Of a stretch of 40,423 nt of DNA, positions 4,587 through 35,355 are shown one piece after another (position 1 is the stretch's first letter; each line of letters begins with the position of its first letter). The stretch is from Deltaproteobacteria bacterium (GTDB lineage: Bacteria; Desulfobacterota; DSM-4660; Desulfatiglandales; HGW-15), in NCBI GenBank assembly GCA_016930835.1, contig JAFGGA010000015.1, positions 1-40,423 of the forward strand. Reading direction: 5' to 3'. The position numbers and the translations under genes are program-made. The notes beneath the pieces were generated by a model that saw only the letters and a program-made list of their open reading frames with translations, searched no databases and was not told the DNA's origin.

Positions 4587-7500
4587 ATGTCAAATGAAAG
4601 CGAAAACAAAGTAACCGGTTCCGTAATGGTCGTTGGTTCCGGCATCGCGGGTATCCAAGCCTCTTTGGATCTGGCCAATTCAGGTTATCTGGTCTATTTG
4701 GTGGAGAAGAAAACAGCCATAGGCGGGGTGATGGCTCAATTGGATAAGACCTTCCCCACTAATGACTGTTCCATGTGCATCATCTCGCCCAAATTGGTGG
4801 AATGCGGAAGACATCTCAATATTGATCTCCTGACCATGACGGAGATCAAGGAGGTCACCGGTGAAGCGGGTCACTTTCAAGTCAAGGTCTTGGAGAAACC
4901 CCGTTATGTGGATATATCGAAATGTACGGCGTGTGGCGAATGCGCGAAAGTTTGTCCCATTGACGTCCCCAACCTGTTTGACGAAGGACTTCGAGACCGG
5001 AAGGCGGCCTATAAACTCTATCCTCAAGCCATGCCCAGTGCTTTCTCCATCGAAAAAAGAGGAACGGCCCCTTGTAAAGCCACCTGCCCCGCCCATGTCA
5101 GCATTCAGGGGTATATCGCCCTCATCAATCAAGGGAAATACAGGGAGGCCTTGGAATTATTCAAAACATCCCACCCCTTCCCCGCCATATGCGGGCGCGT
5201 ATGTCACCACCCTTGTGAAGGGATCTGCACCCGTGGGGATGTGGAAGAACCCATTGCCATTCAATACCTTCACCGTTTTATCGCGGATGTGGACCTGAAG
5301 AGTAAGAACCCCTACGTTCCTGATGTAACCGAAAACCGGGATGAAAAAATTGCCATTATCGGAGCAGGTCCCGCAGGACTTGCGGCCGCCTATTTTCTAC
5401 GATTACAGGGTTATCAACCGACGGTCTTTGAGAAACTGCCTGTGGCCGGAGGCATGATGGCCGTGGGTATTCCAGCATACCGGCTCCCCCGCGACCTATT
5501 AGCGGCCGAAATCAAGATTATCCAGGATATGGGCGTTGAGATCAAAACGGGCATCACCTTCGGGAAAGATATTACATTGGAGTCATTGGAAAAAGACGGA
5601 TTTCAAGCCGCTTTTATCGCCACGGGGCTTCACCTGAGCCGTCGATTAAATGTGGAAGGGGAAGACCTCCCCGGTGTCTTGAAAGGCGTAGATTTTCTAC
5701 GCGATGCAGCCCTCGGCAATAAGGTCGATGTGGGAAAGAAGACCATCGTGATCGGTGGTGGAAACGTAGCCATAGATGTGGCCTTAACCGCCAAACGCAC
5801 CGGCGCTCAAGAAGTCACACTGGTCTGTCTAGAAAAACGTGAAGAGATGCCGGCCTGGGACTATGAGATCGAAGAGGCCCTTGAAGAAGGTGTCACCATT
5901 GTGAACAGTCTAGGGCCTAACCGATTTCTTGAACAGAGCGGCAGGCTTTCCGGTATTGAATTCAAATGTTGCACGGCGGTCTTTGACGACAATGGTGCTT
6001 TCAATCCTCAATACGATACCTCAAATTTGACCGACATGAAAGCTGAAACCATTATTGTGGCCATCGGGCAGGCTGCGGATCTTTCATTCGCGGATAAAAA
6101 CGGCGTGGCGGTGACCAGGAGGGGTGGCCTGGAAGCGGATCCCATCACTCTCGAAACGCCCATCAAGGGCGTTTTTGCGGGCGGCGATGTCTTTTATGGC
6201 CCTAAATCGGTTGTTGAGGCCGTGGAATGTGGGAAAGAGGCAGCCGAAAGTATCCATCGATATCTAAACAATATGGATCTAAAACAAGGCAGGAAAAAAG
6301 ATTGGTCTTATGAAAAGCCTGATATCCAAGGTGAACCCCGAAAAGCACGGATCTCCATGCAAACCCTGTCGGTAGAAGACCGGATCGGGAACTTTAATGA
6401 AATCGCCCTGGGCTTTACGGAAGACGAGGCCAGGGAGGAAGCCCAGCGCTGTCTGAAGTGCGGTATCTGCTCGGAGTGTTACCAATGCGTGGGCGCATGT
6501 TTGGCCGGCGCCGTGGATCACAATATGACGCCCACGGAACGAACCCTTGAGGTGGGCGCCATTATCCTTGCTCCGGGCTTTACCCCTTTTGATCCCAGCC
6601 GATTCACATCCTACAATTACGCCAACCATCCCAATGTCGTCACCAGCATGGAATTTGAGCGGATCCTTTCAGCTTCTGGCCCTTACGAAGGTCATTTGAT
6701 CAGGCCTTCGGACCACAAAGAACCCAAAAAAATCGCATGGCTACAATGTGTGGGATCACGGGACATCAATCGCTGTGATCATGCTTATTGCTCGGCCGTG
6801 TGCTGCATGTATGCCATCAAAGAGGCGGTTATTGCCAAAGAACATAGCAAGATTCCATTGGATACGAGCATCTTCTATATGGACATGCGCACGTATGGGA
6901 AGGATTTTGAGGAGTACTATGTCAGGGCGGAGGAGGAAAGAGGTGTTCGGTTTGTACGATCCAGGATACATACCGTCGATCCTATTGAAAACGATGATCT
7001 TTCCATAACCTATGCGGATGAGTCCGGTAAAACCCACACGGAAACCTTCGATATGGTGGTTCTCTCCATCGGTCTGGCCCCCAATCCCGATATCGTCCAA
7101 TTGGCTGAAACCCTTGGCGTCGAACTTAATAAGCATTCATACGCCCAGACCAACAGCTTTACCCCGGTCAGCACCAACCGTGATGGAATCTTCCTGTGCG
7201 GTGTATTTCAAGGTCCGAAAGACATCCCGCAATCGGTCATGGAGGCATCCGCCGCAGCCGCCGCATCCGGCGAGATCCTGGCCGATGTCCGGGATACCCT
7301 GACCCGCACCAAGGAGCTTCCGCAGGAGATTGACTTTTCCGGCCAAGAACCCCGCGTGGGGGTGTTTGTCTGCAATTGTGGCATCAATATCGGCGGGGTG
7401 GCGGATGTCCCTGCCGTCCGTGAATATGCGAAGACCCTTCCCAATGTGATTCATGTGGAGGACAACCTGTTTACTTGTTCGCAGGATACACAGGATAAGA

Positions 7501-9026
7501 TGAAAGAAGTGATCCAAGAGTTGGGCATCAACCGGGTTGTGGTGGCATCATGCTCTCCCCGGACACACGAACCCCTATTTCAGGAAACCATTCGAGAGGC
7601 GGGGCTGAACAAGTATCTCTTTGAAATGGCCAATATTCGGGATCAAGATACCTGGGTTCACATGAACGATCCGGAAAAGGCCACGGAAAAGGCCAAGGAT
7701 CTGGTGCGTATGGCCGTTGCCAAAGCCGCTCTCATCGAACCCTTACAACAGGTACCACTGACGGTTAAAGGGTCCATACTGGTCATCGGCGGTGGCGTAG
7801 CCGGTATGGAGGCCGCAATGTGCGCCGCTCAACAGGGACTACAGGTCTATTTGGTGGAAAAAACCGACCAATTGGGTGGAACGGCCCTCAAGCTTCGATC
7901 CACATGGAAAGGTGAGGACGTATCCGATTACGTCCAAAGTCTGATTCGACGTGTTCAGACGCACGAATCAATACGGATCTTTATGGAGACGACCATTCAA
8001 CAGACGGCCGGCATCATCGGTAATTTTACAACCACCCTGACCCCAATTAACGGAAATAACGAGTTAACCGTTATTGAACACGGTGCCACGATTTTCGCAA
8101 CCGGCGGCCATGAATACAGACCAAAAGAATACCTATATGGGCAAAATCTGAACGTCTTGACTCATTTGGACCTGGACCAGGCCGTGCTATCAGCGGATGA
8201 GCGTATCAGCTCGGCCAAAACAACCGCATTCATCCAGTGTGTCGGATCCAGGATCCCGGAACGTCCCTATTGCAGCAAGATATGCTGTACCCACAGTCTG
8301 GAAAGCGCCCTCACCCTGAAAGAAATCAACCCTGATATGGATATCTATATCCTTTATAGAGATCTTCGATCCTATGGGTTTCGTGAGGATCTTTATAAAG
8401 AAGCAAGAGAAAAAGGCGTCATTTTTATCCGATACACCCCGGATAAACCCCCGGATGTACGCTCGGAAGACGGACAATCACTCTTGCTGATCGTAAGAGA
8501 CCCCATCTTGGATCGTGACATCAAGATTTCCCCGGACCTATTGATCCTTGCGTCGGCCATCTTGCCAAACGAAAACAAAGAATTATACGAATTATTCAAG
8601 ATTCCTACCAATAGTGAAGGTTTTCTTATTGAGGCCCATATGAAATTGCGGCCGGTGGATTTTTCTTCAGAAGGGCTGTTTATGGCCGGTCTGGCCCACT
8701 ACCCGAAACCCTTGGATGAAAGTATCGCACAGGCAAAGGCGGCAGTGGCCAGGGCCATGACCATTCTGAGCAGAAAGACCATTATGGTGGGTGGTGTGGT
8801 GGCAACCGTCAATCCCGACCGCTGTGCGGCATGTTTGACCTGTGTTCGTACATGTCCATATAACGCCCCGCATATTGGTGAAGAAGGTTATGCCATCATT
8901 GATCCGGCCGAATGCAGAGGATGCGGGGCCTGTGTGGCGGAATGTCCCGGGAAAGCCATTACATTGCAACACTTTACCGATGAACAAATTCTCGCGAAGA
9001 CCGATGCCCTTTTTCAGGCAGGGTAG
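4587..9026 (+). CDS. hdrA: Giant HdrA-type electron-transfer flavoprotein with NAD(P)H module (Cys version)
   Basis: A 1,479-residue iron-sulfur flavoprotein of the heterodisulfide-reductase A family. Order of parts: an N-terminal HdrA FAD motif (GSGIAG, 17-22); the family CSMC motif with Cys61 and Cys64; a ferredoxin-like [12 protein letters not shown] (Cys113-123); an inserted GltD/NfnB-like module of roughly 155-575 with its own FAD site (IGAGPAGLAA, about 255) and NAD(P)H site ([10 protein letters not shown], about 388); an HdrA cysteine cluster CLKCGICSECYQC near 622; a second HdrA half starting near 920 with another FAD motif (GGGVAGMEAA, about 1065); and a C-terminal two-cluster ferredoxin (1412-1458). 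The likely role is flavin-based electron transfer or bifurcation between NAD(P)H, ferredoxin and the MvhD-MetVF partners encoded next. GAGGGATAAGG precedes the ATG. No hdrB or hdrC is nearby. Large HdrA fusions with such inserts (HdrL-like) are known in sulfate reducers. Confidence 0.92.
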   Translation: MSNESENKVTGSVMVVGSGIAGIQASLDLANSGYLVYLVEKKTAIGGVMAQLDKTFPTNDCSMCIISPKLVECGRHLNIDLLTMTEIKEVTGEAGHFQVKVLEKPRYVDISKCTACGECAKVCPIDVPNLFDEGLRDRKAAYKLYPQAMPSAFSIEKRGTAPCKATCPAHVSIQGYIALINQGKYREALELFKTSHPFPAICGRVCHHPCEGICTRGDVEEPIAIQYLHRFIADVDLKSKNPYVPDVTENRDEKIAIIGAGPAGLAAAYFLRLQGYQPTVFEKLPVAGGMMAVGIPAYRLPRDLLAAEIKIIQDMGVEIKTGITFGKDITLESLEKDGFQAAFIATGLHLSRRLNVEGEDLPGVLKGVDFLRDAALGNKVDVGKKTIVIGGGNVAIDVALTAKRTGAQEVTLVCLEKREEMPAWDYEIEEALEEGVTIVNSLGPNRFLEQSGRLSGIEFKCCTAVFDDNGAFNPQYDTSNLTDMKAETIIVAIGQAADLSFADKNGVAVTRRGGLEADPITLETPIKGVFAGGDVFYGPKSVVEAVECGKEAAESIHRYLNNMDLKQGRKKDWSYEKPDIQGEPRKARISMQTLSVEDRIGNFNEIALGFTEDEAREEAQRCLKCGICSECYQCVGACLAGAVDHNMTPTERTLEVGAIILAPGFTPFDPSRFTSYNYANHPNVVTSMEFERILSASGPYEGHLIRPSDHKEPKKIAWLQCVGSRDINRCDHAYCSAVCCMYAIKEAVIAKEHSKIPLDTSIFYMDMRTYGKDFEEYYVRAEEERGVRFVRSRIHTVDPIENDDLSITYADESGKTHTETFDMVVLSIGLAPNPDIVQLAETLGVELNKHSYAQTNSFTPVSTNRDGIFLCGVFQGPKDIPQSVMEASAAAAASGEILADVRDTLTRTKELPQEIDFSGQEPRVGVFVCNCGINIGGVADVPAVREYAKTLPNVIHVEDNLFTCSQDTQDKMKEVIQELGINRVVVASCSPRTHEPLFQETIREAGLNKYLFEMANIRDQDTWVHMNDPEKATEKAKDLVRMAVAKAALIEPLQQVPLTVKGSILVIGGGVAGMEAAMCAAQQGLQVYLVEKTDQLGGTALKLRSTWKGEDVSDYVQSLIRRVQTHESIRIFMETTIQQTAGIIGNFTTTLTPINGNNELTVIEHGATIFATGGHEYRPKEYLYGQNLNVLTHLDLDQAVLSADERISSAKTTAFIQCVGSRIPERPYCSKICCTHSLESALTLKEINPDMDIYILYRDLRSYGFREDLYKEAREKGVIFIRYTPDKPPDVRSEDGQSLLLIVRDPILDRDIKISPDLLILASAILPNENKELYELFKIPTNSEGFLIEAHMKLRPVDFSSEGLFMAGLAHYPKPLDESIAQAKAAVARAMTILSRKTIMVGGVVATVNPDRCAACLTCVRTCPYNAPHIGEEGYAIIDPAECRGCGACVAECPGKAITLQHFTDEQILAKTDALFQAG

Positions 9027-9144
9027 CAATGGATGGAGCTGCCAGAATTCAGCGGTCAGGTGGAGTGAAAGGCTATTTGTTAAACCAATCATGCCCATTC
9101 TGGTACGAAGTAATGGGTGTTAGGCCACTTTGAAAGGAGCTACC

Positions 9145-9567
9145 ATGTTGGACTTTGAACCCAGGATACTAGCTTATTGCTGCCAGTACTGAGCATATTC
9201 CGCCGCGGACCTGGCAGGTTCCATGAGGCTTTCATATCCAAGCAATATCAAAATTATTCAGGTCCCCTGTACCGGGCGGGTGGACATTATTCACCTGCTT
9301 AAAGCCATTGAAGACGGGGCCGACGGAGTATATGTAGCCGGATGCCTTGAAGGTGAGTGCCATTACCTGACCGGGAACCTCAAGGCCCGAAAACGGGTCA
9401 ATCATGTTAAAAAAATTTTAATGGATCTAGGCATAGAGCCTGAACGCGTGGAGATGTACAACCTTTCTGCGGGTGAAGGTCCTCGATTTGCTGAAATAGC
9501 CAGGGAGATGTATGAAAGAATCAAGGGATTGGGACCCAGCCCGGTAAAAATGAAAAATGCCGCATAA
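9145..9567 (+). CDS. mvhD: MvhD-type electron-transfer subunit, selenoprotein (UGA at 9190-9192)
   Basis: A 140-residue protein if the in-frame TGA at codon 16 is read as selenocysteine. The start at 9145 is chosen because AAAGGAG lies six bases before it and the reading AYCC-Q-Y-U-A-Y followed by SAADLAGSMRL matches the MvhD N-terminus, where the U position is normally Cys in a Cys-rich iron-sulfur motif. Further family marks are VPCTGRVD and GCLEGECHY. MvhD passes electrons between HdrA and a partner enzyme through a [2Fe-2S] cluster; here the neighbours suggest MetVF as partner. A gene finder that ignores Sec would start at the ATG at 9223 and lose the first 26 residues with the cluster ligands. 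Operon B has a paralog with the same Sec at the same codon. Confidence 0.92.
9190..9222 (+). promoter_or_regulatory. Sec codon and SECIS-like hairpin in mvhD (operon A)
   Basis: The UGA at 9190-9192 is followed 14 bases later by GGACCU-GGC-AGGUUCC (9207-9222), a six-pair stem with one bulged U and a short G-starting loop. The loop sits about 24 bases after the first base of the UGA, in the range of bacterial SECIS elements, which sit inside the coding region. The same 26-base stretch recurs unchanged in the second mvhD. Confidence 0.75.
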
Positions 9568-9579
9568 AAGAGGTGAATC

Positions 9580-10248
9580 ATGATAGTTGCAAATCCAAAG
9601 CCGATCAGTGAGATACTGGACATGATCAAGGATCTAAAAAAGATCCTTATTCTCGGATGTAAAGGTTGTGTTACGGTATGTAATGTCGGTGGCGCCAAGG
9701 AAGTCGGAATCCTTGCATCCACACTGAAGATCGCCCGAATAAAAGGGGGAAACCCTGTAGATATTACGGAAAGGACCTTGGAAAGGCAGTGCGATCCTGA
9801 ATACATCGCCCAAGTAAAAGATATCGTCCATGACTTTGACGGGGTCATTTCCATGGCCTGTGGTGTGGGTCCCCAATTCCTATCAGAGGCATATCCCAAA
9901 CAGCGTTTTTTTCCGGCTGTTGATACTACCTTTTTTGGAGGTGCCGTACAACACGGGATATGGGCTGAACGTTGCGCGGGTTGCGGTACTTGCATTATCC
10001 ACTACTTCGATGGTATGTGTCCCATCGCAAGATGCTCCAAAAGCCTTATGAATGGTCCCTGCGGCGGCTCGGCAGGTGGAAAATGTGAAATTTCCAAGGA
10101 TGTGGATTGCATCTGGGACATGATTGTTCGGAAAAAAATGGAACAAGGACGCCTCGATGATCTGGTTAGATTCAAACCTTCAAAAGATTGGCGAACCGCA
10201 AGAGATGGGGGCCCACGTCGGAGCATAAGGGAGGAATTAGTCATATGA
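9580..10248 (+). CDS. metV: MetV, methylenetetrahydrofolate reductase accessory subunit
   Basis: A 222-residue protein of the family annotated as methylenetetrahydrofolate reductase C-terminal-domain protein, known as MetV in acetogens such as Moorella, where it forms a complex with MetF. Cysteine motifs that fit metal or iron-sulfur binding are visible: GCKGCVTVC near residue 26, CAGCGTC near residue 132, then CPIARC and NGPCGGS. The ATG at 9580 is preceded by AGAGGTGAATC. The stop codon overlaps the metF start in an ATGA, a sign of translational coupling and of a fixed MetV:MetF ratio. The likely role is to connect MetF to MvhD/HdrA. A paralog lies at 21350-22018. Confidence 0.88.
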   Translation: MIVANPKPISEILDMIKDLKKILILGCKGCVTVCNVGGAKEVGILASTLKIARIKGGNPVDITERTLERQCDPEYIAQVKDIVHDFDGVISMACGVGPQFLSEAYPKQRFFPAVDTTFFGGAVQHGIWAERCAGCGTCIIHYFDGMCPIARCSKSLMNGPCGGSAGGKCEISKDVDCIWDMIVRKKMEQGRLDDLVRFKPSKDWRTARDGGPRRSIREELVI

Positions 10249-11177
10249 GCGATTTGAGATCCGGGAGTAACCTTGAAAAAGTCCTGAAAGCCGGCCATTT
10301 TGCATTTACGGGGGAATGCGGACCTCCAAAAGGCGCAAATCTTGAACACCTGAAAGAAAAATTCATGCCCCTTAAAGATATAGTTGATGCGGTTAACATT
10401 ACGGACAATCAGACAGCCGTTGTCCGCATGTCCAGTTGGGCGGCCTCAACCATTCTGATTCAGAACGGTCTGGAGCCGAATTTTCAGATGGTCTGCAGGG
10501 ATCGAAACCGTCTGGCCATTCAAAGCGATATCTTGGGTGTTTATGCCATGGGGGTGCGGAATATGCTTTGTCTTTCAGGTGACCATCAAAGCTTTGGAAA
10601 TCATCCCCAGGCCAAAAACGTCTATGACATCGATTCCATGCAACTAATCGCGTTGGTCAAAAAGATGCGGGATGAAGGAAAATTTATGAATGATGAGGAG
10701 ATTGACGGCCCGCCCAGGCTTTTCATCGGTGCAGCTTCCAATCCCTTTGCTGATCCTTTTGAGTTCAGGGTTTACCGGTTGGCCATGAAGATCGCGGCGG
10801 GTGCCGATTTTATTCAAACACAATGTATCTACAACATGAAAAAATTTCGTGAATTCATGAAAATGGCCGTGGATATGGGATTACATGAAAAATGCCACAT
10901 TCTCGCCGGTGTCACGCCCATGAAGAGCGTTGGTATGGCGCAATATATGGCCAAATCCGTTCCCGGTATGGATGTCCCCGAAGCCCTGATTCAGAGACTA
11001 CGTGATGCAGGGAAAGGAAAGGTCGCCGAAGAAGGCATCAAATTCGCCATTGAACAAATCGAAGAATTTAAGGAGATGGAAGGCGTGGCAGGCGTCCACC
11101 TCATGGCGATTGAATGGGAGCATCGCGTACCCGAGATCGCCGAGAGGGCTGGAATGCTGCCGAGGCCGAAGATCTGA
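10245..11177 (+). CDS. metF: Methylenetetrahydrofolate reductase MetF
   Basis: A 310-residue TIM-barrel flavoprotein that interconverts 5,10-methylene- and 5-methyl-tetrahydrofolate, in the methyl branch of the Wood-Ljungdahl pathway. Visible family marks are TGECGPPKGA near the N-terminus (the Glu is the usual catalytic position), DAVNITDNQTAVVRMS, CRDRNRLAIQSD, LCLSGDHQSFGNHPQA, GAASNPFADP, and FIQTQCIYN. An open frame extends upstream to 10188, but the ATG at 10245 is chosen because GGGAGG precedes it and it overlaps the metV stop in ATGA. In type III enzymes of this kind electrons come through MetV rather than directly from NAD(P)H. In a sulfate reducer that oxidises acetyl-CoA the reaction may run in the methyl-oxidising direction. 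Confidence 0.93.
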   Translation: MSDLRSGSNLEKVLKAGHFAFTGECGPPKGANLEHLKEKFMPLKDIVDAVNITDNQTAVVRMSSWAASTILIQNGLEPNFQMVCRDRNRLAIQSDILGVYAMGVRNMLCLSGDHQSFGNHPQAKNVYDIDSMQLIALVKKMRDEGKFMNDEEIDGPPRLFIGAASNPFADPFEFRVYRLAMKIAAGADFIQTQCIYNMKKFREFMKMAVDMGLHEKCHILAGVTPMKSVGMAQYMAKSVPGMDVPEALIQRLRDAGKGKVAEEGIKFAIEQIEEFKEMEGVAGVHLMAIEWEHRVPEIAERAGMLPRPKI

Positions 11178-11461: not shown

Positions 11462-11722
11462 ATGATTATCACAACCCAAAATGGAAAATCCTTTGATACA
11501 CAAAAGGATTTAACAGCCCCGGAGCGTCATGTCCTCCAGAAGTTGTTTTTGTGGCAATCCATGGCCTCAAGCCTCCAGCAATTCAAAGAAAAAACAAACG
11601 AGGCATTCAATAAAGGATGGAATAACTCCGGAAGAATATACCAAAGTCCCGCCTTAAAGACGATTGTGCATGATCTGGAAACAAAAGTAATAGCCCGGTT
11701 GGCGGAGAGCCATGTCGAGTAA
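11462..11722 (+). CDS. Small conserved-looking hypothetical protein
   Basis: An 86-residue soluble protein without signal peptide, membrane segment or cysteines. It contains a charged helical middle (FKEKTNEAFNKGWNN, about 37-51) and the phrase APERHVLQKLF. I have no functional assignment. No strong ribosome binding site precedes the ATG (CTAGATTCAA), which lowers confidence in the start. It stands alone between operon A and the Rossmann-type kinase, on the same strand, with about 180 bases to the next gene. The protein-like composition and absence of internal stops argue for a real gene. Confidence 0.55.
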   Translation: MIITTQNGKSFDTQKDLTAPERHVLQKLFLWQSMASSLQQFKEKTNEAFNKGWNNSGRIYQSPALKTIVHDLETKVIARLAESHVE

Positions 11723-11906: not shown

Positions 11907-13898
11907 TTGGTATTGAAACCCACACTCTTTAGATTCGAACCGGAGATAAATAAGGAATCCATTCAGATTGTCCGCGGTCGGCAATCCAAGGTGATTTTTA
12001 ATGCCGGTGTGATCGGTGGAGGCAATGCCTGCCTCAACCTGCTTAAACTCCTGGACGAAGACCGTTCGTCGCGATTGAAGATGCGGATAATTGGGGTTTC
12101 CGATATCAACCCTGATTCGCCGGGATATGTTTGCGCAAAAAAACTCAACCTATTCACCACCACCAACTTTAAAGAACTTTTTTCCCTTAAAGGACTTAAT
12201 CTAATCATCGAACTCACAGGGTCCTATGAGGTTCTGGATCAAATCATCCAATCAAAGCCGTCTAATCTCTCCGTAATCGACCATGTGGGCGCCAGGTTTC
12301 TTTGGGATCTGATTCAATTGGAGGTGGAAAAGGTAGAACTGGAAAAGGAATGGCATCGGTATTTGGAGGCCCTTCGGAAACAGACCAAGGTTATACCGGA
12401 CTCCCTACCCTATCGTATTATGGTGATCAATATGGACAAGACGGTTGAGACCGTCAACCAAACCTTCCTGAACGCCTTTAACCTAACCGAGAGCATGGTC
12501 CTGGGCAAACATTGTTACGAGTTAAAATATGGGATTGACCGACCGTGCATGCGATCGGAAAACAATCGATGCTATATAGACGACAACCTGGCTGAAATAA
12601 AGGAAAAAGGGATTTTCAGTACCTATGAGGAATATCCTTCGAAGAGCGGAAAAAGCCGATGCGAAGTGATTACCATGGCCCCCATATTTGATGATGATGG
12701 AGAAATTGTCCAGATCTTGGAGGCTTCAAGGGATGTAACTGACAGGATTGAACTGGAAAGAGAGGCTGAAAAATCCAATACCTTTCTCCAGAATGTGATT
12801 CAGAGTACGGTGGATGGAATCGTGGTAGTGGATACAAAGGGAAATGTCCTCATCTATAACAAAGGCATGGAACGTTTAACCGGATTTCCTGCTAATGAAA
12901 TTATTAATAAAAGGCATTTGAGTACCTTTTATGATATTGAGACCGCCAGGGCAAATATGGAAAAGATGCGGAGCGACAAGTACGGCCCTCCAGGGAAGTT
13001 GAATCCCACCAGCATGACCATCAAGACAAGGTATGGGGAGGAGATTCCGGTCACCTTATCAGCATCCATCATCACCATCGAAGGAAAAGAGATCGGGAGC
13101 GTGGGCGTATTCACGGATATGAGGGAAATACTCGAAATGCGTAGAAATCTGGAAGAGGCCCATCTGCAGTTGGTGCAATCTGAAAAAATCGCATCGGTCG
13201 GTAGGATGGCCGCTGGAGTCGCGCATGAAATCAACAACCCCCTCTCCGGGATCATGATCTACGCGGAGTTATTAAAGGAAAACTTAAAGGATAATCTCCA
13301 ACATCTCAAAGATGTTCAAGAGATCATCACCCAAACATTACGCTGCAAAAAAATCGTTTCCGACCTGTTGGAATTCAGCCGTCAATCGGTTGGAAAAGTA
13401 TCATCCTTCAGTGTTGAAGAATTGATCAACAAGTCCCTGAATCTGTTTGTCAATCAAGCCTTATTCCAGGACATCCAAGTACAGCAGCTTATCGAGGAAG
13501 GTATGCCTCATATGGTAGGTGATCCGGGACAGCTTCAACAGGTCCTGACAAATCTCTTGTTAAATGCGGCCGATGCCATGCATGGTAAGGGCCGCTTAAA
13601 CATTGACGCAACATTCGATCACGCCAGGGAATATTTCATCATTAAGGTATCCGATACAGGTCCCGGCATTCCAAAGGACCTTCATGATAAGATCTTTGAC
13701 ATCTTTTTCACGACCAAACCGGTTGGAAAGGGGACCGGCCTCGGATTGAGTATCACGAAAAATATAATCCAATTGCATGGCGGAAATATCATGGTGGATT
13801 CCGCACCGGGTAAGGGAACCTCCTTCATTATAGAGCTCCCGCTCGGTTTTGTGGATCAGCCTCAAGATGAACCTGTTTTTATCGGATTGGATGAATAA
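11907..13898 (+). CDS. Histidine kinase with N-terminal Rossmann (NAD-binding-like) sensor domain and two PAS domains
   Basis: A 663-residue soluble kinase. Residues about 30-140 form a dehydrogenase-like Rossmann unit with the glycine motif NAGVIGGGNAC, an acidic strand end (GVSDINPDSPG) and LIIELTGSYEVL, resembling homoserine/aspartate-dehydrogenase NAD-binding domains. Two PAS-like regions follow (about 160-285 and 290-420), the first with a Cys cluster (HCYELKYGIDRPCM, then RCYID). The kinase core has His440 in AGVAHEINNP and an ATPase with SDTGPGIP and GTGLGLSI. The start is uncertain: TTG at 11907, or TTG at 11913. The stop overlaps the next start (TAATG), so it is probably coupled with the receiver-kinase that follows. 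A sensor of NAD(H) or another dinucleotide is a reasonable guess. A similar N-terminus occurs in the kinase at 26590. Confidence 0.85.
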   Translation: MVLKPTLFRFEPEINKESIQIVRGRQSKVIFNAGVIGGGNACLNLLKLLDEDRSSRLKMRIIGVSDINPDSPGYVCAKKLNLFTTTNFKELFSLKGLNLIIELTGSYEVLDQIIQSKPSNLSVIDHVGARFLWDLIQLEVEKVELEKEWHRYLEALRKQTKVIPDSLPYRIMVINMDKTVETVNQTFLNAFNLTESMVLGKHCYELKYGIDRPCMRSENNRCYIDDNLAEIKEKGIFSTYEEYPSKSGKSRCEVITMAPIFDDDGEIVQILEASRDVTDRIELEREAEKSNTFLQNVIQSTVDGIVVVDTKGNVLIYNKGMERLTGFPANEIINKRHLSTFYDIETARANMEKMRSDKYGPPGKLNPTSMTIKTRYGEEIPVTLSASIITIEGKEIGSVGVFTDMREILEMRRNLEEAHLQLVQSEKIASVGRMAAGVAHEINNPLSGIMIYAELLKENLKDNLQHLKDVQEIITQTLRCKKIVSDLLEFSRQSVGKVSSFSVEELINKSLNLFVNQALFQDIQVQQLIEEGMPHMVGDPGQLQQVLTNLLLNAADAMHGKGRLNIDATFDHAREYFIIKVSDTGPGIPKDLHDKIFDIFFTTKPVGKGTGLGLSITKNIIQLHGGNIMVDSAPGKGTSFIIELPLGFVDQPQDEPVFIGLDE

Positions 13899-15367
13899 TG
13901 GAAGAAACAATCAAGATCTTGGTGGTGGACGATGAAAAAGTCATCCGGGACGGATGCCATCGTGTCTTAAACGGAAAAGGATATCAGGTCTTGACCGCGG
14001 AAAACGGTAAAATCGCCTTGGACATCCTTATCAAGGATCACATTGACATCATTTTATTGGATCTGAAAATGCCCGTTATGAGCGGCGAAGAAGTGCTGGA
14101 AAGGACATCATCTCAATACCCAGAGATTCCCGTCATTATAATTACGGGGCACGGAACCATTGATACGGCCGTGGAATGCATGAAAAAAGGGGCTTACGAT
14201 TTTATCACCAAGCCCTTTCAGTTTGACCCGTTTTTACTGACCATTAATCGAGCGGCTGAAAAGCGGAAACTTGAACAAAAGGCAAAAAACCTTCAAGATG
14301 AAAACGTGAAAAACCTTTATGACCTGTATCTTGAGAAGAGCCGATTGAGGACCATCATCAACTGCATGGCCAACGGTGTCATGGTCAACAACCGCAACAT
14401 GGAGGTGGTGCTCCACAACCCCGCATTGATGAAACTCTTGGAGATATCCGAGCAGAAAGAAAACCCCTTACCCCTGAATAAAATCATTCGAAATGAATCG
14501 CTTGTTTCCACACTTGATAAGATACAATCCGGCAAGACCTCTGAAGGAGAATTCATCTCCCAGGAGATCAAGGCGATGAAGAAGACCCTCCGCGCCATTT
14601 CCGCTCCGGCCCTTGGACCCGATAATCAGGTGGTGGGAACGGTTACGGTTCTTGAAGACATCACTCCCTTCAAGCAACTGGATGAAATGAAGTCCGATTT
14701 TGTGAATATGGTCGCCCATGAACTCCGAAGCCCCCTGGCCGCTATCAGACAACAGAACAGCGTCATTCTTGAAGGATTGGCCGGTCCACTTCAGGAAAAA
14801 CAAAAAGCGCTTTTAGATAGAGTTATCCAAAAAATCGATACCTTACTAGATTTAATTAACGATCTTCTTGATATTGCCACCATTGAAGCTGGCAAGACTG
14901 TTCAGCGCCAGATCCCTTTGGACGTCTCTCAGATTATGGAAAACATGGTGGCACTCATGTCGGCCAAGGCCCAAGAAAAAGATATTCAATTAGCCTGTTC
15001 CTGTCAAAACATGAAAACCATTTTTGCAGACCCTAAAGGTATTGAGGAAGTGTTTTCCAACCTTATCACCAATGCCATCAACTATTCTCCAAGCCATGGC
15101 AAGGTTGAAGTAACGGCAGAGGGATTAAATGAATACATGGAAATCAAGGTTATGGATACGGGATTCGGGATACCACCCGATGAACTCCCGAAGATATTTG
15201 ATAAATTCTATCGTGTTAAACACCCCCAAACCCGTCAGGTCATGGGAACCGGCCTGGGACTCGCCATTGTGAAGGGTATTGTAGAGGCCCATAACGGGAC
15301 GATTGAGGTGGAGAGCACCCCCGATCAAGGTACAACCTTTAAGATCTTGCTTCCCATAATAAAATAA
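13898..15367 (+). CDS. Response-regulator/histidine-kinase hybrid (receiver first)
   Basis: A 489-residue protein whose N-terminal receiver domain (about 5-120) has the acidic pair in VVDDEKV, Asp55 in ILLDLKMPVMSG, Thr in ITGHG and Lys in TKPF. A coiled linker and a PAS-like domain (about 150-255) precede a kinase core with His274 in NMVAHELRSP and an ATPase domain with N box NLITNAINYS, MDTGFGIPPDE and GTGLGLAIV. No DNA-binding domain is present. The one-base overlap with the preceding Rossmann-kinase suggests that this receiver takes its phosphate and that the pair forms a phosphorelay. It lies between the two hdr operons on the same strand. The downstream target is unknown. Confidence 0.88.
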   Translation: MEETIKILVVDDEKVIRDGCHRVLNGKGYQVLTAENGKIALDILIKDHIDIILLDLKMPVMSGEEVLERTSSQYPEIPVIIITGHGTIDTAVECMKKGAYDFITKPFQFDPFLLTINRAAEKRKLEQKAKNLQDENVKNLYDLYLEKSRLRTIINCMANGVMVNNRNMEVVLHNPALMKLLEISEQKENPLPLNKIIRNESLVSTLDKIQSGKTSEGEFISQEIKAMKKTLRAISAPALGPDNQVVGTVTVLEDITPFKQLDEMKSDFVNMVAHELRSPLAAIRQQNSVILEGLAGPLQEKQKALLDRVIQKIDTLLDLINDLLDIATIEAGKTVQRQIPLDVSQIMENMVALMSAKAQEKDIQLACSCQNMKTIFADPKGIEEVFSNLITNAINYSPSHGKVEVTAEGLNEYMEIKVMDTGFGIPPDELPKIFDKFYRVKHPQTRQVMGTGLGLAIVKGIVEAHNGTIEVESTPDQGTTFKILLPIIK

Positions 15368-15406
15368 TGTAAGTTTGAATATCCATTCACCTTGGAGGTC
15401 AATCCT

Positions 15407-16282
15407 ATGCAGCTCAATGATAAAATCCGATCCGGTCAATTTGTTGTGCTAGGGGAATTTGAACCACCCAAAGGGATCGATTTTGGCGGTTTTTTAAAAA
15501 ACGCTGACCTCGTCAAAGGCCGTTTAGATGCTGTTGTCGTACCGGAAATGGCCAATGGGGTATTAAAGGCCAGCTCATTGGGCGGATGTGCCTTCCTCCA
15601 ATCCCATGGGACCGAGACCGTGCTGCAAATATGCCACAGGGATCGGAACCGTCTGGCTTTACAGGCGGACATCTTGGCCGCATCGGCATTGGGTATATCC
15701 AACGTAATGGCCGTCCCCGGTGATGACATTCGTTTTGGAGACCATCCTCAGGCAAGGGCGGTGAACGATCTGAACCTGCTTGATCTTCTCCAACTGCTGA
15801 AAACCCTTCAGGAAGGTAAGGATATGGCAGGGATAGAGCTTGCCGGAAAACCGCAATTCTGTACTGGATCATTACTGAATACAGGGGCCAGCGGAGGGTT
15901 GCTGGACATGGAATTGGACAATCTGGATCAGATGATTCGGCTGGGTGTCCGGTTTGTGATTACGACACCTGTTTTTGATATTCACCGTTTTCAACAATTC
16001 ATCAAACGGATCAACACCCTCCAAGTGGCTGTGATCCCGACGATTCTTCTTTTAAAATCGGCCGGCATGGCGAGATATATTGATAGAAATATGAAACATA
16101 TCAACATCCCCCCGGAGACCATCAGGGAGATTCAAAAGGCCCCGGATAAGCCCAAAAAATGTATTCAAATAGCGGGTGAACTCATCAGACAATTAAAGGC
16201 TCTGGGAATGGCTGGTGTGATGATCTCTACCGTAGGCTGGGAAGATAAATTACCACAGGTCCTTTCAGAAGCGAAGTTATAA
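15407..16282 (+). CDS. MetF-like protein, third paralog, without MetV partner
   Basis: A 291-residue member of the methylenetetrahydrofolate-reductase fold, clearly diverged from the two metF genes here. The N-terminal LGEFEPPKG keeps the catalytic-type Glu, and ICHRDRNRLALQADI matches the flavin-site region. However, the SGDHQSFG of the true copies is replaced by PGDDIRFG, and FIQTQCIYN by FVITTPVFD. The ATG at 15407 is chosen over a TTG at 15392 because GGAGG lies nine bases before it. It is 39 bases after the receiver-kinase and about 180 before the Sec-hdrA, with no metV of its own. It may be a MetF with another partner, a regulatory folate-binding protein, or a MetF of changed substrate. 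Confidence 0.8.
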   Translation: MQLNDKIRSGQFVVLGEFEPPKGIDFGGFLKNADLVKGRLDAVVVPEMANGVLKASSLGGCAFLQSHGTETVLQICHRDRNRLALQADILAASALGISNVMAVPGDDIRFGDHPQARAVNDLNLLDLLQLLKTLQEGKDMAGIELAGKPQFCTGSLLNTGASGGLLDMELDNLDQMIRLGVRFVITTPVFDIHRFQQFIKRINTLQVAVIPTILLLKSAGMARYIDRNMKHINIPPETIREIQKAPDKPKKCIQIAGELIRQLKALGMAGVMISTVGWEDKLPQVLSEAKL

Positions 16283-16298
16283 GGAGCGTCGCCCGATG

Positions 16299-16385
16299 TG
16301 TGTGGTTTACGGTCTATGGTTTATGGTACAAGGTTCATGGCATAAGGCCTTATACCGTACAACGTAAACCCTATACCTTTCGCTT
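16299..16385. repeat. Imperfect inverted repeat upstream of Sec-hdrA
   Basis: The region has alternating GGTTTACGG, GGTTTATGG and GGTTCATGG phrases, then ATAAGGCCTTAT (a perfect 12-base palindrome) and a complementary arm with CGTAAACCCTATACC. It could fold into a long imperfect hairpin in the leader of operon B. No T-run follows. It could be a dispersed repeat or a leader structure. Confidence 0.4.
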
Positions 16386-16462
16386 ATAGCGAAAAGGCTG
16401 GCATATCGAAACCATTTCCCAATTTGAGGTTTAACGTCAATCCCCAAAAAAGGATCTCCGCA

Positions 16463-19400
16463 ATGACCAACAAAAGCATCAAAAAAGTCTCCGGTTCCGT
16501 AATGATTGTGGGCGGCGGTATAGCCGGTATGCAGTCCGCCTTGGATCTCGCCAACTCGGGTTACTATGTTTATCTGGTTGAGAAATCATCCGCCATTGGC
16601 GGGATCATGTCCCAGTTGGACAAGACATTCCCCACCAATGACTGCGCCATGTGAATCATCTCGCCTAAACTGGTCGAGGTCGGCCGGCATCTAAACATCG
16701 AACTGCTCACCAATACCGAACTCCTTGAACTGCAGGGTGAAAAAGGAAATTTCACCGCCAAGGTCATGCAAAAGCCGCGTTACGTGGATATCTCCAAATG
16801 CACGGGTTGCGGGGAGTGCGCCAAGGTCTGCCCGGTGGTCCTGGACAACGAATACGACATGGGACTCTCGAGCAAAAAAGCCGCCTATAAACTTTACCCC
16901 CAGGCCATTCCCGGGGCCTTTGCCATACAGAAAGCGGACAAGGCCCCATGTAGACTCGCCTGCCCGGCCGGGCTCAATGTTCAAGGCTATGTCCAGATGG
17001 TTGGACAGGGTAAATACAAAGAGGCCTTGGAAATTATCATGAAAGACCTCCCCCTTCCTGGCGTATTGGGAAGGATTTGCCCGCATGGTTGTGAAGATGC
17101 CTGCAGGCGCTGCGAAGTGGATGAAGCGGTGGCCATCAGGAATCTCAAGCGGGTGGCTGCTGATCAGTTTGATCCCAGGGCGATAAAAGTGCCATGCGCT
17201 CCACCCCGAAAGGAAAAGGCGGCCATCATCGGTTCAGGACCGGCCGGTTTATCCGCCGCCTATCATCTTGCGAGAAAAGGGATATTATCCACCATCTTTG
17301 AGGCACTGCCTGAGCCCGGCGGGATGCTGCGCGTTGGGATCCCGGGACATAGGCTTCCACGAAACATCCTGGACCAAGAGATCGAGGTGATCACCAACCT
17401 GGGAGTGGAGATCAAAACCAACGCACCCATAGGGCCGGACCTGACCATCGATGCTCTTTTCAAGAAGGGATATGAGGCTGTTTACCTGGCCATCGGCGCC
17501 CACAAGGGCATGGAATTAGGCATCCCAGGCGAAAAGGCCGAGGGTGTTCAACAAGGTGTGGATTTCTTGAGAGAAGTAAACCTGAAAGGCACGGCCCCAG
17601 TGGGCAAAAAACTCGCCATCATCGGAGGCGGAAATGTGGCCATTGATGTGGCCCGCTCCGCGGTTCGTCTGGGTGCGAAAGAGGTTAATATCATTTATAG
17701 ACGCACCCGCGCGGAGATGCCCGCATGGGAAGAAGAGATCCAGGCGGCGGAAGACGAAGGGACCGCCATTACCTATCTATCCGCTCCGCAAGAGGTCTTG
17801 ACGCAGGATGGCAAGGTCGTGGGTCTGCGCTGCGTTCGAATGGAATTGGGTGAACCGGACTCATCCGGACGAAGAAGACCCGTCCCCATCCCCGGAAGTG
17901 AATACGATCTCGAGATCGATCAGCTGATTCCGTCCATCGGCCAGACCCCTGATCTCTCCATCATCGGTGATATTGAAGACGTGGGCACCTCTCGCTGGGG
18001 AACCATAGAAGTGGACCCCATCACCTATGCCACCACCAAACCAGGGCTTTTTGCCGGCGGCGATGTACAGACCGGACCATGGGTGGCCATTGGTGCCATT
18101 GCGGCCGGGAAAGAGGCGGCGGAGTCCATTCTCCGATACCTGGACGGGCGTGACATGGCTGAAGGCCGGGAACCCATCACCAATGAGAACCCTCAATACC
18201 GTCCCATACCTGAAAGGATCAAAAAGCAGGCGCGGTCCGCCATGAAAGAACTACCCATTCACGATAGGGTTGGCAATTTTCATGAAGTGGAACTGGGTTA
18301 TGATGAAGAAACAGGAAAAAGCGAGGCCAATCGATGCCTGAACTGTGGTTATTGCTGTGAATGTTTCCAATGCGTGGATGCGTGTATTGCTGAAGCCGTG
18401 TGCCACGACCAGCAACCTGTCGAACGCGATATCACGATCGGCTCCGTCATCCTATGTCCGGGCGCTTCTCTGTTTGATCCCTCACCATACGAGGGGTTCT
18501 ATAAATATAACCAGCATCCCAATATCCTGACCAGTACGGAATTTGAACGGATCTTAAGTGCCACGGGCCCGACCATGGGCCACATGAAAAGGCCATCGGA
18601 TGGAAAAGAACCGACGAAGATTGCGTGGCTCCAATGCGTAGGTTCCAGGGACACGGCCCATTGCAATAATGGTTACTGTTCAGCCGTGTGTTGCATGTAT
18701 GCCATCAAGGAGGCGGTCATTGCAAAGGAACACATGAAAGGGGATCTGGATACGGCTATCTTTTTTATGGATATCCGCACCTATGGAAAGGACTATGAAA
18801 AATATTACAACCGTGCCAAAGACGAACACGGTGTCCGGTTCATACGGTCCAGGGTTCATACCATCGATCCAATGGGTCATGATCTGATCCTCAAGTATTC
18901 CGATGAGATGGGTCAACTTCATGAAGAGATGTTTGATATGGCTGTCCTGTCTGTCGGCTTTGAAATCGATCAAGAAAGGATCGAATTCGCCGGCCGTTTG
19001 GGCATATCCCTCAACAAATACAACTTCGCCCTCACCCCCGCGTTCAAACCCGTTGAGACGTCCCGTCCCGGGGTTTATGTATCCGGTATTTTTCAGGCTC
19101 CCAAGGATATACCCAGTTCCGTCACGGAAGCAAGCGCCTCTGCGTGTGCAGCGAGTATCGACCTGAGTGAGGCCCGTGGAACGGATATCAAGACCCTGTC
19201 CATGCCGGAAGAGATTGATGTTTCCGATCAAGATCCCAGGATCGGCGTGTTTGTTTGTGATTGCGGCATCAATATCGCCGGGGTGGTGGATGTCCCAGCT
19301 GTGGTGGTATATGCCAAATCCCTTCCTAACGTGGTTTACGCACAAGAAAATCTCTTCTCCTGTTCCCAAGATACCCAGGACAGGATGAAGGGGATCATTA

Positions 19401-20902
19401 AAGAGAATTCCTTAAATCGTGTGGTGGTGGCATCTTGTTCACCCAGGACCCATGAACCGTTGTTTCAAGAAACCATGCAGGCCTGTGGTCTGAATAAATA
19501 CCTCTTTGAAATGGCCAATATCAGGGACCAGGATTCCTGGGTGCATGGGAGCAACCCCGAGGCCGCCACCCGAAAAGCCAAAGACCTGGTGCGAATGGCT
19601 GCGGCCCGCGCCGCCCTTCTGACGCCTCTTCAAGAAAAACGGATACCCATTACCATGCGGGCCCTTGTGATCGGTGGTGGTGTGGCGGGGATGAACGCCG
19701 CTCTAGGTCTGGCGGATCAAGGGTTTGAGACAATCATAGTGGAAAAAGAGGCCCAATTGGGTGGTCTGGCCAGAGAATTGACGACCACCATCGAGGGCGA
19801 TGATATACAGCGGTATCTCATCGAACTCATGGATCGGATCAACCGCCACGAAAAGATCCAGGTGCTTACGGAGACCCTTATTGTTGGTTTCGGGGGCTTT
19901 AAGGGTAATTTTTATACGGAACTTATGGTGGGCCCTGCCATGTACGCGCGTAAGATCGAACATGGTGTGGTGATCTTGGCCACCGGGGCCATCGAATACA
20001 AACCCAAAGAATACCTGTACGGGGAAGATCACCGTATCATGACCCAGATCGATCTCGGGAAACGGCTCGAGGTCAAGGGTGCGGATGACCTGAATCAAGT
20101 GGTCATGATTCAATGCGTGGGATCAAGGAACGAAGAGAATCCCAATTGCTCCCGCATCTGTTGCCAGAGCGCCATCAAAAACGCCCTGCATATCAAGGAA
20201 TTGAACCCGGATACCGAGGTATGGATCTTATACCGTGATATTCGCACATACGGCCTCCACGAGGATTATTACACCGCCGCCCGGAAAAACGGCGTTAAAT
20301 TTTTCAGATTCTCAAAAGATGAACCGCCGCGTGTGGAGGCAACGGACAAAGGCCTTTTTGTAATATTCAAGGATCATGTGCTTCAACGGGATCTCAGGGT
20401 CCCCACCGATCTATTGGCCTTGAGCGCGGGTATGGTCCCAACGGACACCGGTGAGCTGGCCTCCATCATCAAACTCCCGAGAAACGAGCAAGGTTATTTC
20501 TTGGAGGCCCATGTAAAGCTGCGTCCCGTGGATCTGGCCAATGACGGCATCTTCCTGTGCGGCACGGCACATGGCCCGAAACTCATCACGGAAAGCATTT
20601 CCCAGGCATATGCGGCCGCATCGAGGGCCGCGACATTTTTATCTCAACCGGAAATCATTCTGTCCGCCGTGACGGCAAAAGTGGACCAGTCCCGCTGTGC
20701 GGCCTGCTTGATATGCGTCCGGGTCTGTCCCTACAATGTCCCCCGGATCAATGAAAACGGCGTGAGCGAGATCGATGAGGCCCTTTGCCACGGATGCGGG
20801 ATCTGCGCATCCGAATGTCCCGCAAAGGCCATCGAATTAAACTGGTACGAGGATCAGCAAATCATGAGCAAATTGGATTCATTGCTGGAAGGGGTTCTCT
20901 GA
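16463..20902 (+). CDS. hdrA: Giant HdrA-type electron-transfer flavoprotein, selenoprotein (UGA at 16652-16654)
   Basis: A 1,479-residue selenoprotein if the TGA at codon 64 is read as Sec; it is exactly as long as the operon A paralog. The Sec replaces Cys64 of that copy, in NDCAMU-IISPK against NDCSMC-IISPK, and Cys73 is Val here. All other parts are kept: N-terminal FAD motif GGGIAG, ferredoxin [12 protein letters not shown], GltD/NfnB-like insert with [11 protein letters not shown] and the NAD(P)H motif [10 protein letters not shown], the HdrA cluster [13 protein letters not shown], the second half with [10 protein letters not shown], and the C-terminal ferredoxin ([11 protein letters not shown] and [11 protein letters not shown]). 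The ATG at 16463 is chosen by alignment with the paralog; an upstream in-frame start at 16424 would add 13 residues. Its stop overlaps the mvhD start (TGATG). Without Sec the gene appears broken into a 64-codon piece and a late-starting ORF. Confidence 0.92.
16652..16687 (+). promoter_or_regulatory. Sec codon and SECIS-like hairpin in hdrA (operon B)
   Basis: The UGA at 16652-16654 is followed by CUGGUC (16670-16675), loop GAGGUC (16676-16681) and GGCCGG (16682-16687). All six stem positions pair, counting two G-U pairs. The loop resembles the AGGUCU loop of the E. coli fdhF SECIS as I recall it, and lies about 25-30 bases after the start of the UGA. The Cys paralog has TTGGTG-GAATGC-GGAAGA at this place, which does not form the stem. 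Confidence 0.78.
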
Positions 20903-21333
20903 TGAAAGACTTCGATCCCATTATTATTACGTTCTGTTGTAACGCGTGAGGGTATACCGCCGCGGACCTGGCAGGTTCCATGCGACTTCAATACCCGGAG
21001 GCCATCCGGATCATACGTGTACCGTGTACCGGGAAAGTGGATATCCTCCATATCCTAAAATCCTTTGAAAAAGGCGCGGACGGTGTGTATATCGTGGGGT
21101 GCCTTGAGGGAGACTGTCGCTTTGACAACGGCAATCTTCGGGCCCGAAAACGGGTTCAACAGGCCCAGGCCCTGCTCGATAAGATCGGAATCGGTGGAGA
21201 GCGCGTACAGATGTACAATCTTTCATCGGGTGAGGGTCCGTTGTTTGCGGAAATAGCCGCTGAAATGACGGCAAAAATAAAAGAAATGGGGCCGAATCCC
21301 CTTAAGGAAGCACTCAAGAAACAGGCAGCATGA
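20902..21333 (+). CDS. mvhD: MvhD-type electron-transfer subunit, selenoprotein (UGA at 20947-20949)
   Basis: A 143-residue protein when the TGA at codon 16 is read as selenocysteine. The start at 20902 overlaps the hdrA stop by one base (TGATG), which points to coupled translation. The N-terminus reads ITFCCNAUGYTAADLAGSMR, parallel to the operon A copy; later motifs are VPCTGKVD and GCLEGDCRF. It should shuttle electrons between HdrA and MetVF via an iron-sulfur cluster with a Sec ligand or nearby Sec. Annotators that stop at TGA would place the start at 20980. Confidence 0.92.
20947..20979 (+). promoter_or_regulatory. Sec codon and SECIS-like hairpin in mvhD (operon B)
   Basis: The same GGACCU-GGC-AGGUUCC hairpin (20964-20979) at the same distance from the UGA as in operon A. 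The bases at 20957-20982 are identical to 9200-9225, including every third codon position, while flanking synonymous positions differ. Confidence 0.75.
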
Positions 21334-21349
21334 AGGGAGGTCAAATCAC

Positions 21350-22018
21350 ATGATTGTTGCGGAAAAGAAACCCATTGAAGAGATTATTGAAGAGATCAAG
21401 GATTACAAAAAGATCCTCATTGCCGGCTGCAATGAATGCGTGACGGTATGCGAGGCCGGTGGTAAGAAGGAAGTAGGGGTACTGGCGTCGGCACTACGCA
21501 TGTATTTCATTAATAACGGGAAAAAGATGGAAATCGATGAAGTCACCCTTGAACGCCAGTGTGACCATGAATATTTAGAGGAGATCCGCAACCAGATCGG
21601 CCAATACGATGCGGTCGTATCCTTGGCATGCGGTGTGGGGGTCCAGTTTATGGCGGAGAAATATCGACGGATTCCCATTTATCCGGGTGTGAATACCAGC
21701 TTTATGGGGGTTACGGAAGAAAGGGGCGTATGGACCGAAAGATGTCAAGGATGCGGCCAATGTATTTTAGCCAGGACCGCCTCCATCTGCCCCATATCCC
21801 GATGTGCCAAGAGGCTGTTAAATGGCCCCTGCGGCGGAAGCACCAACGGGAAATGTGAAATCAGTAAGGATCTGGACTGCGCTTGGCAACTGATTATCGA
21901 TCGTCTGAAAGAATTGAACCGGCTTGATGATTACGAGAAGCTGCTACCGATTAAAGACTGGTCAACCGAGAGGGCTGGCGGGCCCAGAAAAGTGGTGAGG
22001 GAGGATGTGAGACTATGA
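21350..22018 (+). CDS. metV: MetV, methylenetetrahydrofolate reductase accessory subunit (second copy)
   Basis: A 222-residue paralog of the operon A MetV, with exactly the same length. Cysteine motifs GCNECVTVC, CQGCGQC, CPISRC and NGPCGGS are retained, as are the C-terminal KDW and GGPRKVVRED phrases (KDW and GGPRRSIREE in copy A). A strong AGGGAGG ribosome binding site lies nine bases before the ATG. The stop overlaps the metF start (ATGA). It probably binds metal or an iron-sulfur cluster and links MetF to MvhD/HdrA. Confidence 0.88.
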   Translation: MIVAEKKPIEEIIEEIKDYKKILIAGCNECVTVCEAGGKKEVGVLASALRMYFINNGKKMEIDEVTLERQCDHEYLEEIRNQIGQYDAVVSLACGVGVQFMAEKYRRIPIYPGVNTSFMGVTEERGVWTERCQGCGQCILARTASICPISRCAKRLLNGPCGGSTNGKCEISKDLDCAWQLIIDRLKELNRLDDYEKLLPIKDWSTERAGGPRKVVREDVRL

Positions 22019-22953
22019 TTGAGACAAAGACACCCAGCAAACTTGAAAAAATCCTGTCATCCGGTCACATGGCCGTCACATCCGAGTGCGGTCCCCCGAG
22101 GGGTAGCAACCCGGAGGCTGTCACGAAAAAGGCTGAACTGATACGGAACCATGTGGATGCCATCAATATCACGGATAACCAGACGGCCGTCACCCGTCTC
22201 TGCAGTCTGGCATCTTGCATCCACCTTAAGATGATGGGGATCGAGCCTACCCTGCAAATGGTGACCAGGGACCGTAATCGAATCGCTCTGCAGAGTGATA
22301 TCCTGGGAGCGGCATCCTTTGATATCCATAATATCCTCTGCCTTTCAGGGGATCATCAATCATTCGGCGATTGCCCGACCGGCCAGAATGTCTTTGATCT
22401 GGATTCCATGCAACTCATCCAGACCGTTCGTTTGATGCGGGATGAAGGCAAGTTTTTAGGCGGTGATGGAATCGATCGCCCCCCCCAATTATTTGTGGGT
22501 GCGGCCGCCAATCCCTTTGCCGATCCCTTTGAAATACGCGTGCCTCGCCTGGCCAAAAAGGTGGCTGCCGGTGTGGAATTTATTCAAACCCAATGCATCT
22601 ATAACCTGGATAAATTCGAATTGTGGATGAAACAGGTTCGTGACCGAGGGCTCCATGAAAAAGTATATATCCTGGCGGGTGTGACGCCGCTCAAATCCGC
22701 CGGTATGGCCAAATACATGAAAAACCGTGTCCCCGGAATGGATGTCCCTGATGAGGTCGTACACCGGATGAGCGGCGTTTCTAAAGAAAAACAGGCCGAG
22801 GAAGGCATTAACATATGTGTGGAATCCATTCAAAGGCTTAAGGAGATCGAGGGGGTTCGCGGTTTCCATATCATGGCTATTGAATGGGAACAGAAGGTCC
22901 CGGAGATCGTGGAACGAAGCGGCCTTTTCCCAAGGCCGAAAATAGAAATGTAA
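22015..22953 (+). CDS. metF: Methylenetetrahydrofolate reductase MetF (second copy)
   Basis: A 312-residue MetF of the same subtype as the operon A copy. Visible motifs are TSECGPPRGS, DAINITDNQTAVTRLC, VTRDRNRIALQSD, LCLSGDHQSFGDCP, GAAANPFADP and FIQTQCIYN. It interconverts methylene- and methyl-tetrahydrofolate. The ATG overlaps the metV stop. The closing codons contain a CGGCCTT-AAGGCCG hairpin (22919-22937) but no T-run follows, so it is not called as a terminator. The MetV and MetF pairs of operons A and B look like old duplicates that moved together with hdrA and mvhD. Confidence 0.93.
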   Translation: MIETKTPSKLEKILSSGHMAVTSECGPPRGSNPEAVTKKAELIRNHVDAINITDNQTAVTRLCSLASCIHLKMMGIEPTLQMVTRDRNRIALQSDILGAASFDIHNILCLSGDHQSFGDCPTGQNVFDLDSMQLIQTVRLMRDEGKFLGGDGIDRPPQLFVGAAANPFADPFEIRVPRLAKKVAAGVEFIQTQCIYNLDKFELWMKQVRDRGLHEKVYILAGVTPLKSAGMAKYMKNRVPGMDVPDEVVHRMSGVSKEKQAEEGINICVESIQRLKEIEGVRGFHIMAIEWEQKVPEIVERSGLFPRPKIEM

Positions 22954-35331: not shown

Positions 35332-35355
35332 AGGGATAAACCATTTTATAAAGTT

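Follow-up and report, generated by a model that had tools for sequence, protein, structure and literature searches.

Background

What is sensed by a histidine kinase whose gene sits between two redox operons and whose N-terminus resembles half of a dehydrogenase? The question is raised by a 40,423-nt stretch of a Deltaproteobacteria bacterium genome (contig JAFGGA010000015.1), referred to below as the window. The original prediction had read the N-terminus of this protein, here called RossHK1, as a Rossmann-like domain that could sense the NAD(H) ratio and control the neighbouring electron-transfer operons. The open-access literature was searched for a two-component kinase sensing pyridine nucleotides through a dehydrogenase-type domain, and no description of one was found.

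Results and discussion

RossHK1 lies between two methylene-THF reductase clusters

The kinase, its domains and its immediate neighbours were located as follows.

4587..11177, + strand, HdrA-MvhD-MetV-MetF cluster upstream of RossHK1, of the bifurcating methylene-THF reductase type (Pfam)
11462..11722, + strand, 86-aa ORF between metF and RossHK1 (conservation)
11907..13898, + strand, RossHK1, Rossmann-PAS-PAS-HisKA-HATPase sensor kinase of 663 aa with a TTG start (ORF and Pfam)
11991..12362, + strand, predicted Rossmann sensor domain, aa 29-152 (profile search, AF2 and Foldseek)
12015..12032, + strand, dinucleotide-loop motif GGGNAC, aa 37-42, with Cys42 at the place of the third glycine (alignment)
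12102..12104, + strand, Asp66 at the end of strand 2 (alignment)
12399..12746, + strand, PAS domain 1, aa 165-280 (Pfam)
12783..13127, + strand, PAS domain 2, aa 293-407 (Pfam)
13200..13385, + strand, HisKA dimerisation/phosphoacceptor domain, aa 432-493, with HEINNP at aa 440 (Pfam)
13518..13844, + strand, HATPase_c domain, aa 538-646 (Pfam)
13898..15367, + strand, partner REC-PAS-HisKA-HATPase protein, conserved directly 3' of RossHK1 (Pfam and synteny)
15392..22953, + strand, MetF-HdrA-MvhD-MetV-MetF cluster downstream of RossHK1 (Pfam)

The two flanking clusters bear out the proposed location between redox operons. Both segments that had drawn attention to the protein, GVIGGGNAC (aa 34-42) and VSDINPDSPG (aa 64-73), are present exactly as quoted, and the predicted fusion to PAS domains and a histidine kinase is recovered by Pfam, with HisKA at E 1.5e-16 and HATPase_c at E 3.3e-28 behind the two PAS domains. 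The kinase motifs are intact, comprising the phospho-His H440 and the N, G1 and G2 boxes (HEINNP, NLLLNAADAM, DTGPGIP and GTGLGL). No membrane segment was found in RossHK1, the highest 19-residue Kyte-Doolittle mean being 1.14, and by its sequence it is a soluble kinase of cytosolic type. It has in common with the soluble PAS histidine kinases of the AtoS/ZraS/NtrB type the PAS-HisKA-HATPase core, its best NCBIfam match being AtoS at a score far under the AtoS cut-off, and differs from them by an N-terminal sensor of Rossmann type instead of a periplasmic module or another one already known. The original prediction had overlooked the cysteine in the glycine loop, the partner protein and the 86-aa ORF, as well as a second kinase of this kind in the window, RossHK2 (26590-28158).

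Homology and predicted fold of the N-terminal domain

Family libraries are silent on this part of the protein: Pfam gave no match within the first 160 residues of RossHK1, where neither GFO_IDH_MocA nor NAD_binding_3 reached the curated cut-off, and neither Pfam nor NCBIfam has a family name for the domain. More sensitive comparisons placed it among dehydrogenases. A 48-row family profile searched against PDB sequences matched the acylating acetaldehyde dehydrogenase 1nvm_B (E 4.2e-6) and, more weakly, GFO/IDH/MocA proteins and homoserine dehydrogenases. The AlphaFold2 model built from the 48-sequence alignment displays a Rossmann fold (mean pLDDT 90.2, pTM 0.81), with five parallel strands in the order b-a-b-a-b-a-b-a-b-a. 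Compared with the PDB by Foldseek, this model retrieved 22 matches at E<=0.001, nearly all of them NAD(P)-binding dehydrogenase-type domains; homoserine dehydrogenase (E 1.2e-4), acetaldehyde dehydrogenase and NAD-dependent glycoside hydrolases came at the top, and one Rex-family repressor at rank 20. Among more canonical relatives, one (L164) passes the Pfam cut-offs for both NAD_binding_3 and GFO_IDH_MocA, another (L158) that for GFO_IDH_MocA, and a member of the standalone and tandem forms described below, searched singly, matches the acetaldehyde dehydrogenase 7z3s. Homology and predicted fold are thus well supported, since profile, model, structural comparison and Pfam-passing relatives agree, and in sequence and predicted fold the N-terminal domain of RossHK1 is a dehydrogenase-type Rossmann domain. 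A non-Rossmann fold, which would have gone against the original prediction, was not what these searches returned. The domain had been placed at 11907-12330; it indeed starts within this interval and ends at about 12362, slightly past it.

With the acylating acetaldehyde dehydrogenases (DmpF/BphJ type), the NAD_binding_3 domain of homoserine dehydrogenase and GFO_IDH_MocA, the domain shares the Rossmann fold, the GxG loop, the acidic end of strand 2 and a D..x..(A/S)xG...A motif after this strand. Unlike them, it has no catalytic domain, is fused to a kinase and usually carries Cys in place of the third glycine. The Rex repressor resembles the proposed reading of RossHK1 in using an NADH/NAD+-binding Rossmann domain for sensing, and its dimers are stabilised by C-terminal helices (PMC2883068). 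Rex differs by its N-terminal winged helix followed by a C-terminal Rossmann domain, whereas in RossHK1 the Rossmann domain is N-terminal, the winged helix is absent and the output is a histidine kinase; the sequence of the domain is also closer to dehydrogenases than to Rex.

Distribution and domain architectures

The source genome holds two further kinases with this domain, RossHK2 and one on contig 127. The domain was detected in 53 of 61 genomes comprising this genome and its close relatives, and in 99 of 297 genomes drawn across the phylum. Named records that carry it are nearly all deltaproteobacterial or Desulfobacterota MAGs, with one "uncultured bacterium"; this range beyond the phylum was judged from a single scan of all genomes, which used an 11-row alignment and patterns tuned to the near clade. 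No relative was found in the plasmids searched.

Its architectural contexts are diverse. Two short proteins, L173 (354 aa) and L188 (389 aa), consist of Rossmann, HisKA and HATPase domains only, and in L172 the domain occurs together with GAF, PAS, kinase, REC and GGDEF domains. ORFs of ~760-780 aa (L156-L161) have two tandem Rossmann domains before PAS and kinase domains and are followed by a sigma-54 regulator; their first loop reads GAGRQG or GGGRQG and their second is mostly GGGKAG-like. Standalone Rossmann proteins of 130-165 aa (L163-L170) show a classical GLGRVG-like loop, and one of them, L164, directly precedes a kinase and a sigma-54 regulator. Being found in tandem and with GAF, PAS, kinase, REC and GGDEF domains, the domain therefore behaves as a mobile input module.

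The minimal member L173 is informative on how such a module might be coupled to a kinase. In its AlphaFold2 model a single helix spans residues 102-160; it begins where the last Rossmann strand ends and includes the phospho-His at 143. The last Rossmann helix would thus run straight into the phospho-His helix in a protein where the Rossmann domain is the sole sensor; we consider this continuity suggestive, because the stretch has a pLDDT of 75-89 and the model is of a single chain.

The metV/metF neighbourhood and the putative output of RossHK1

Directly after RossHK1, the partner protein combines a receiver domain (Response_reg, E 3.7e-30) with a HisKA and a HATPase of its own (Pfam), the composition of a REC-PAS-kinase phosphorelay partner. 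In related genomes, the same REC-PAS-kinase directly follows the Rossmann kinase at 15 loci. Of these, 14 have metV and/or metF immediately 5' of the kinase, and the 15th (L067) stops at a contig edge. The chance of one gene falling <=3 kb from metV is ~0.3%, a rough figure that assumes ~3 metV loci per 4-Mb genome and ignores shared descent. The metF-linked kinases cluster with RossHK1 on the tree, in a 26-row clade that also includes members away from metF. At no fewer than 11 loci, including that of the window, metF and the kinase are separated by a conserved ORF of 83-107 aa, which has no Pfam match. Many loci with the same Rossmann domain have no metF nearby, and the one-carbon link is therefore specific to one clade.

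The proposed control of the neighbouring operons finds support in this synteny, conserved in 14 of 15 orthologous loci, from which we infer that the hdrA and metF operons would be the targets of RossHK1. The more direct signs of such control did not appear: no promoter or regulator site tying RossHK1 to the neighbouring operons was found, the motif scan returned no -24/-12 site for sigma-54 before either the hdrA or the metF operons, and no DNA-binding response regulator adjoins RossHK1 in the window. In six relatives (L036-L039, L046 and L070) a sigma-54-type regulator does follow. Moderate sigma-54 scores before mvhD were discarded, as this spot is coding in hdrA and scores weakly in the window.

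The homologous complex of Moorella, MetFV-HdrABC-MvhD, depends on NADH, for which HdrA carries the site (PMC8515935). By analogy, an NADH sensor beside an enzyme of this type would make sense.

Two further features of this region may be recorded. A third MetF-like protein, at 15392-16282, has diverged from the other two and is kept after the REC-PAS-kinase in many genomes. Just 5' of the first HdrA cluster, at 2511-4364, a MEDS sensory domain (methanogen/methylotroph DcmR type) is fused to a histidine kinase and a receiver.

RossHK2 and its probable GcvH-like targets

A clearer circuit than that of RossHK1 emerges around its paralogue, the features of which are given below.

26590..28158, + strand, RossHK2, Rossmann-PAS-HisKA-HATPase, 522 aa (domain search and Pfam)
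28155..29495, + strand, sigma-54-type response regulator partnering RossHK2 (Pfam and synteny)
29492..30061, archaemetzincin (M54) after the RossHK2 regulator (synteny)
34405..36348, - strand, pair of GcvH-like genes that the RossHK2 system probably targets through sigma-54 (motif scan)
36581..36596, - strand, -24/-12-like sigma-54 site CGGCACGGCCCTTGCT in front of the GcvH-like pair (motif scan)

The trio of RossHK2, sigma-54 regulator and archaemetzincin is kept in many genomes and often adjoins genes of ~300-350 aa with a GcvH-like domain. A sigma-54 motif scoring >=10 occurs within 350 bases upstream of 12 of 23 GcvH-like genes, against 0.48 expected from shuffles (maximum 4), and 1.5% of other ORFs reach this score within 300 bases upstream. 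The site of the window precedes the GcvH-like gene 35356-36348, at 233 bases from its predicted start. The regulator, which has GAFTDA in place of the classical GAFTGA, probably drives the GcvH-like genes, judging from these motifs.

Further downstream, a single ORF (37449-38558) encodes both a phage-integrase-like and a HEPN (MAE_28990-like) domain, and positions 38914-40292 contain first a match to an XhoI-type restriction enzyme, whose N-terminal third is missing (profile from position 63), and then a DNA methyltransferase.

Conserved residues and the nature of the ligand

Residues were counted over 88 non-redundant homologous domains, the loop consensus of which is GxGxx(C/G). The first loop glycine (alignment position G11) is invariant and the second (G13) is kept in 86; the end of strand 2 (position 40) is acidic in all 88, as Asp in 81 and Glu in 7. 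As a rule, an acidic residue after strand 2 favours NAD(H) over NADP(H) in Rossmann enzymes, and this residue together with the loop, its third position apart, gives the signature usual for NAD(H). At the predicted cofactor edge, formed by the five loops at the C-terminal ends of the strands, the mean entropy is 1.65 bits, compared with 2.48 in the loops opposite and an overall 2.22, which fits a nucleotide pocket under selection.

One point against NAD(H) is the third loop position (position 16), where Cys, unusual for a dinucleotide loop, is found in 63 of the 88 homologues and in 46 of the 48 of the near set. Cys42, positioned where the first helix begins, could react with sulfide, persulfide or an oxidant, or bind a metal, the Rossmann domain acting as a scaffold in which nucleotide binding is lost or secondary; a host group that metabolises sulfur and the His found close to strand 5 in 54 of 84 homologues (position 100) would agree with a thiol sensor of this kind. 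However, the position is occupied by the classical Gly in 22 homologues (Phe in 2, Ala in 1), it has changed between Cys and Gly at least four times on the tree, the near orthologue L036 has Phe, and the glycines and the acidic strand-2 residue are kept more strictly than Cys, so that we regard this explanation as quite improbable. Another nucleotide or metabolite, such as NADP(H), a CoA or folate derivative or an adenylate, is a slightly better candidate and still an unlikely one. Rossmann folds bind many nucleotides, the neighbours of RossHK1 are folate enzymes and the connection of RossHK2 with GcvH-like genes also suggests one-carbon metabolism; against this stand the invariably acidic strand-2 end, a feature usually unfavourable to NADP(H), and nearest homologues that are NAD-dependent dehydrogenases. 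The least probable of the three alternatives would dispense with a small ligand altogether, the domain docking a partner enzyme such as MetVF-HdrA and reporting its assembly. There is a precedent in RtcR, to whose Rossmann-like CARF domain the target enzymes bind directly (PMC9650030), and both the strict gene linkage to MetVF and the existence of separate domain proteins beside kinases, as with L164, are in line with docking. Conservation is nevertheless concentrated at the cofactor-binding edge, and the wider family sits among many other neighbours. NAD(H) remains our favoured ligand, given the motif, homology and the acidic residue that follows strand 2 without exception.

Proposed mechanism

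Because a sensor made of half a dehydrogenase recurs, beside Wood-Ljungdahl one-carbon genes, the kinase probably reads the NAD(H) state of the cell. NADH and NAD+ would compete for the pocket formed by GxGxxC and the acidic end of strand 2, and the bound form would alter the arrangement of the domain and its last helix in the kinase dimer. The change would travel down the coiled coil, passing through the two PAS domains in RossHK1 and, in the minimal member, entering the phospho-His helix directly, to set autophosphorylation. The adjacent REC-PAS-kinase would then accept the phosphate on its REC domain, and in several relatives it would be handed on to the neighbouring sigma-54 regulator. The biological job of RossHK1 might be to match the MetVF-HdrA-MvhD methylene-THF reductase to the pyridine-nucleotide redox state. 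On balance, we hold it slightly more probable than its contrary that an NAD(H)-binding Rossmann domain devoid of a catalytic domain serves here as histidine-kinase input, tuning methylene-THF reductase to redox state.

Conclusions

A broader proposal is offered tentatively, with odds that we place below even: RossHK1 may represent a large undescribed Desulfobacterota family of cytosolic NAD(H)-ratio sensor kinases, in which the Cys-modified loop would give a combined nucleotide and thiol readout and drive the kinase helix directly, governing one-carbon flux through methylene-THF reductase in one clade and through GcvH-like genes via sigma-54 in another. Should binding be shown, strict anaerobes living near the energy limit would have a means of adjusting a bifurcating methylene-THF reductase to their NADH pool, and the input would be named for a large set of kinases whose PAS and kinase domains are all that present family libraries identify.
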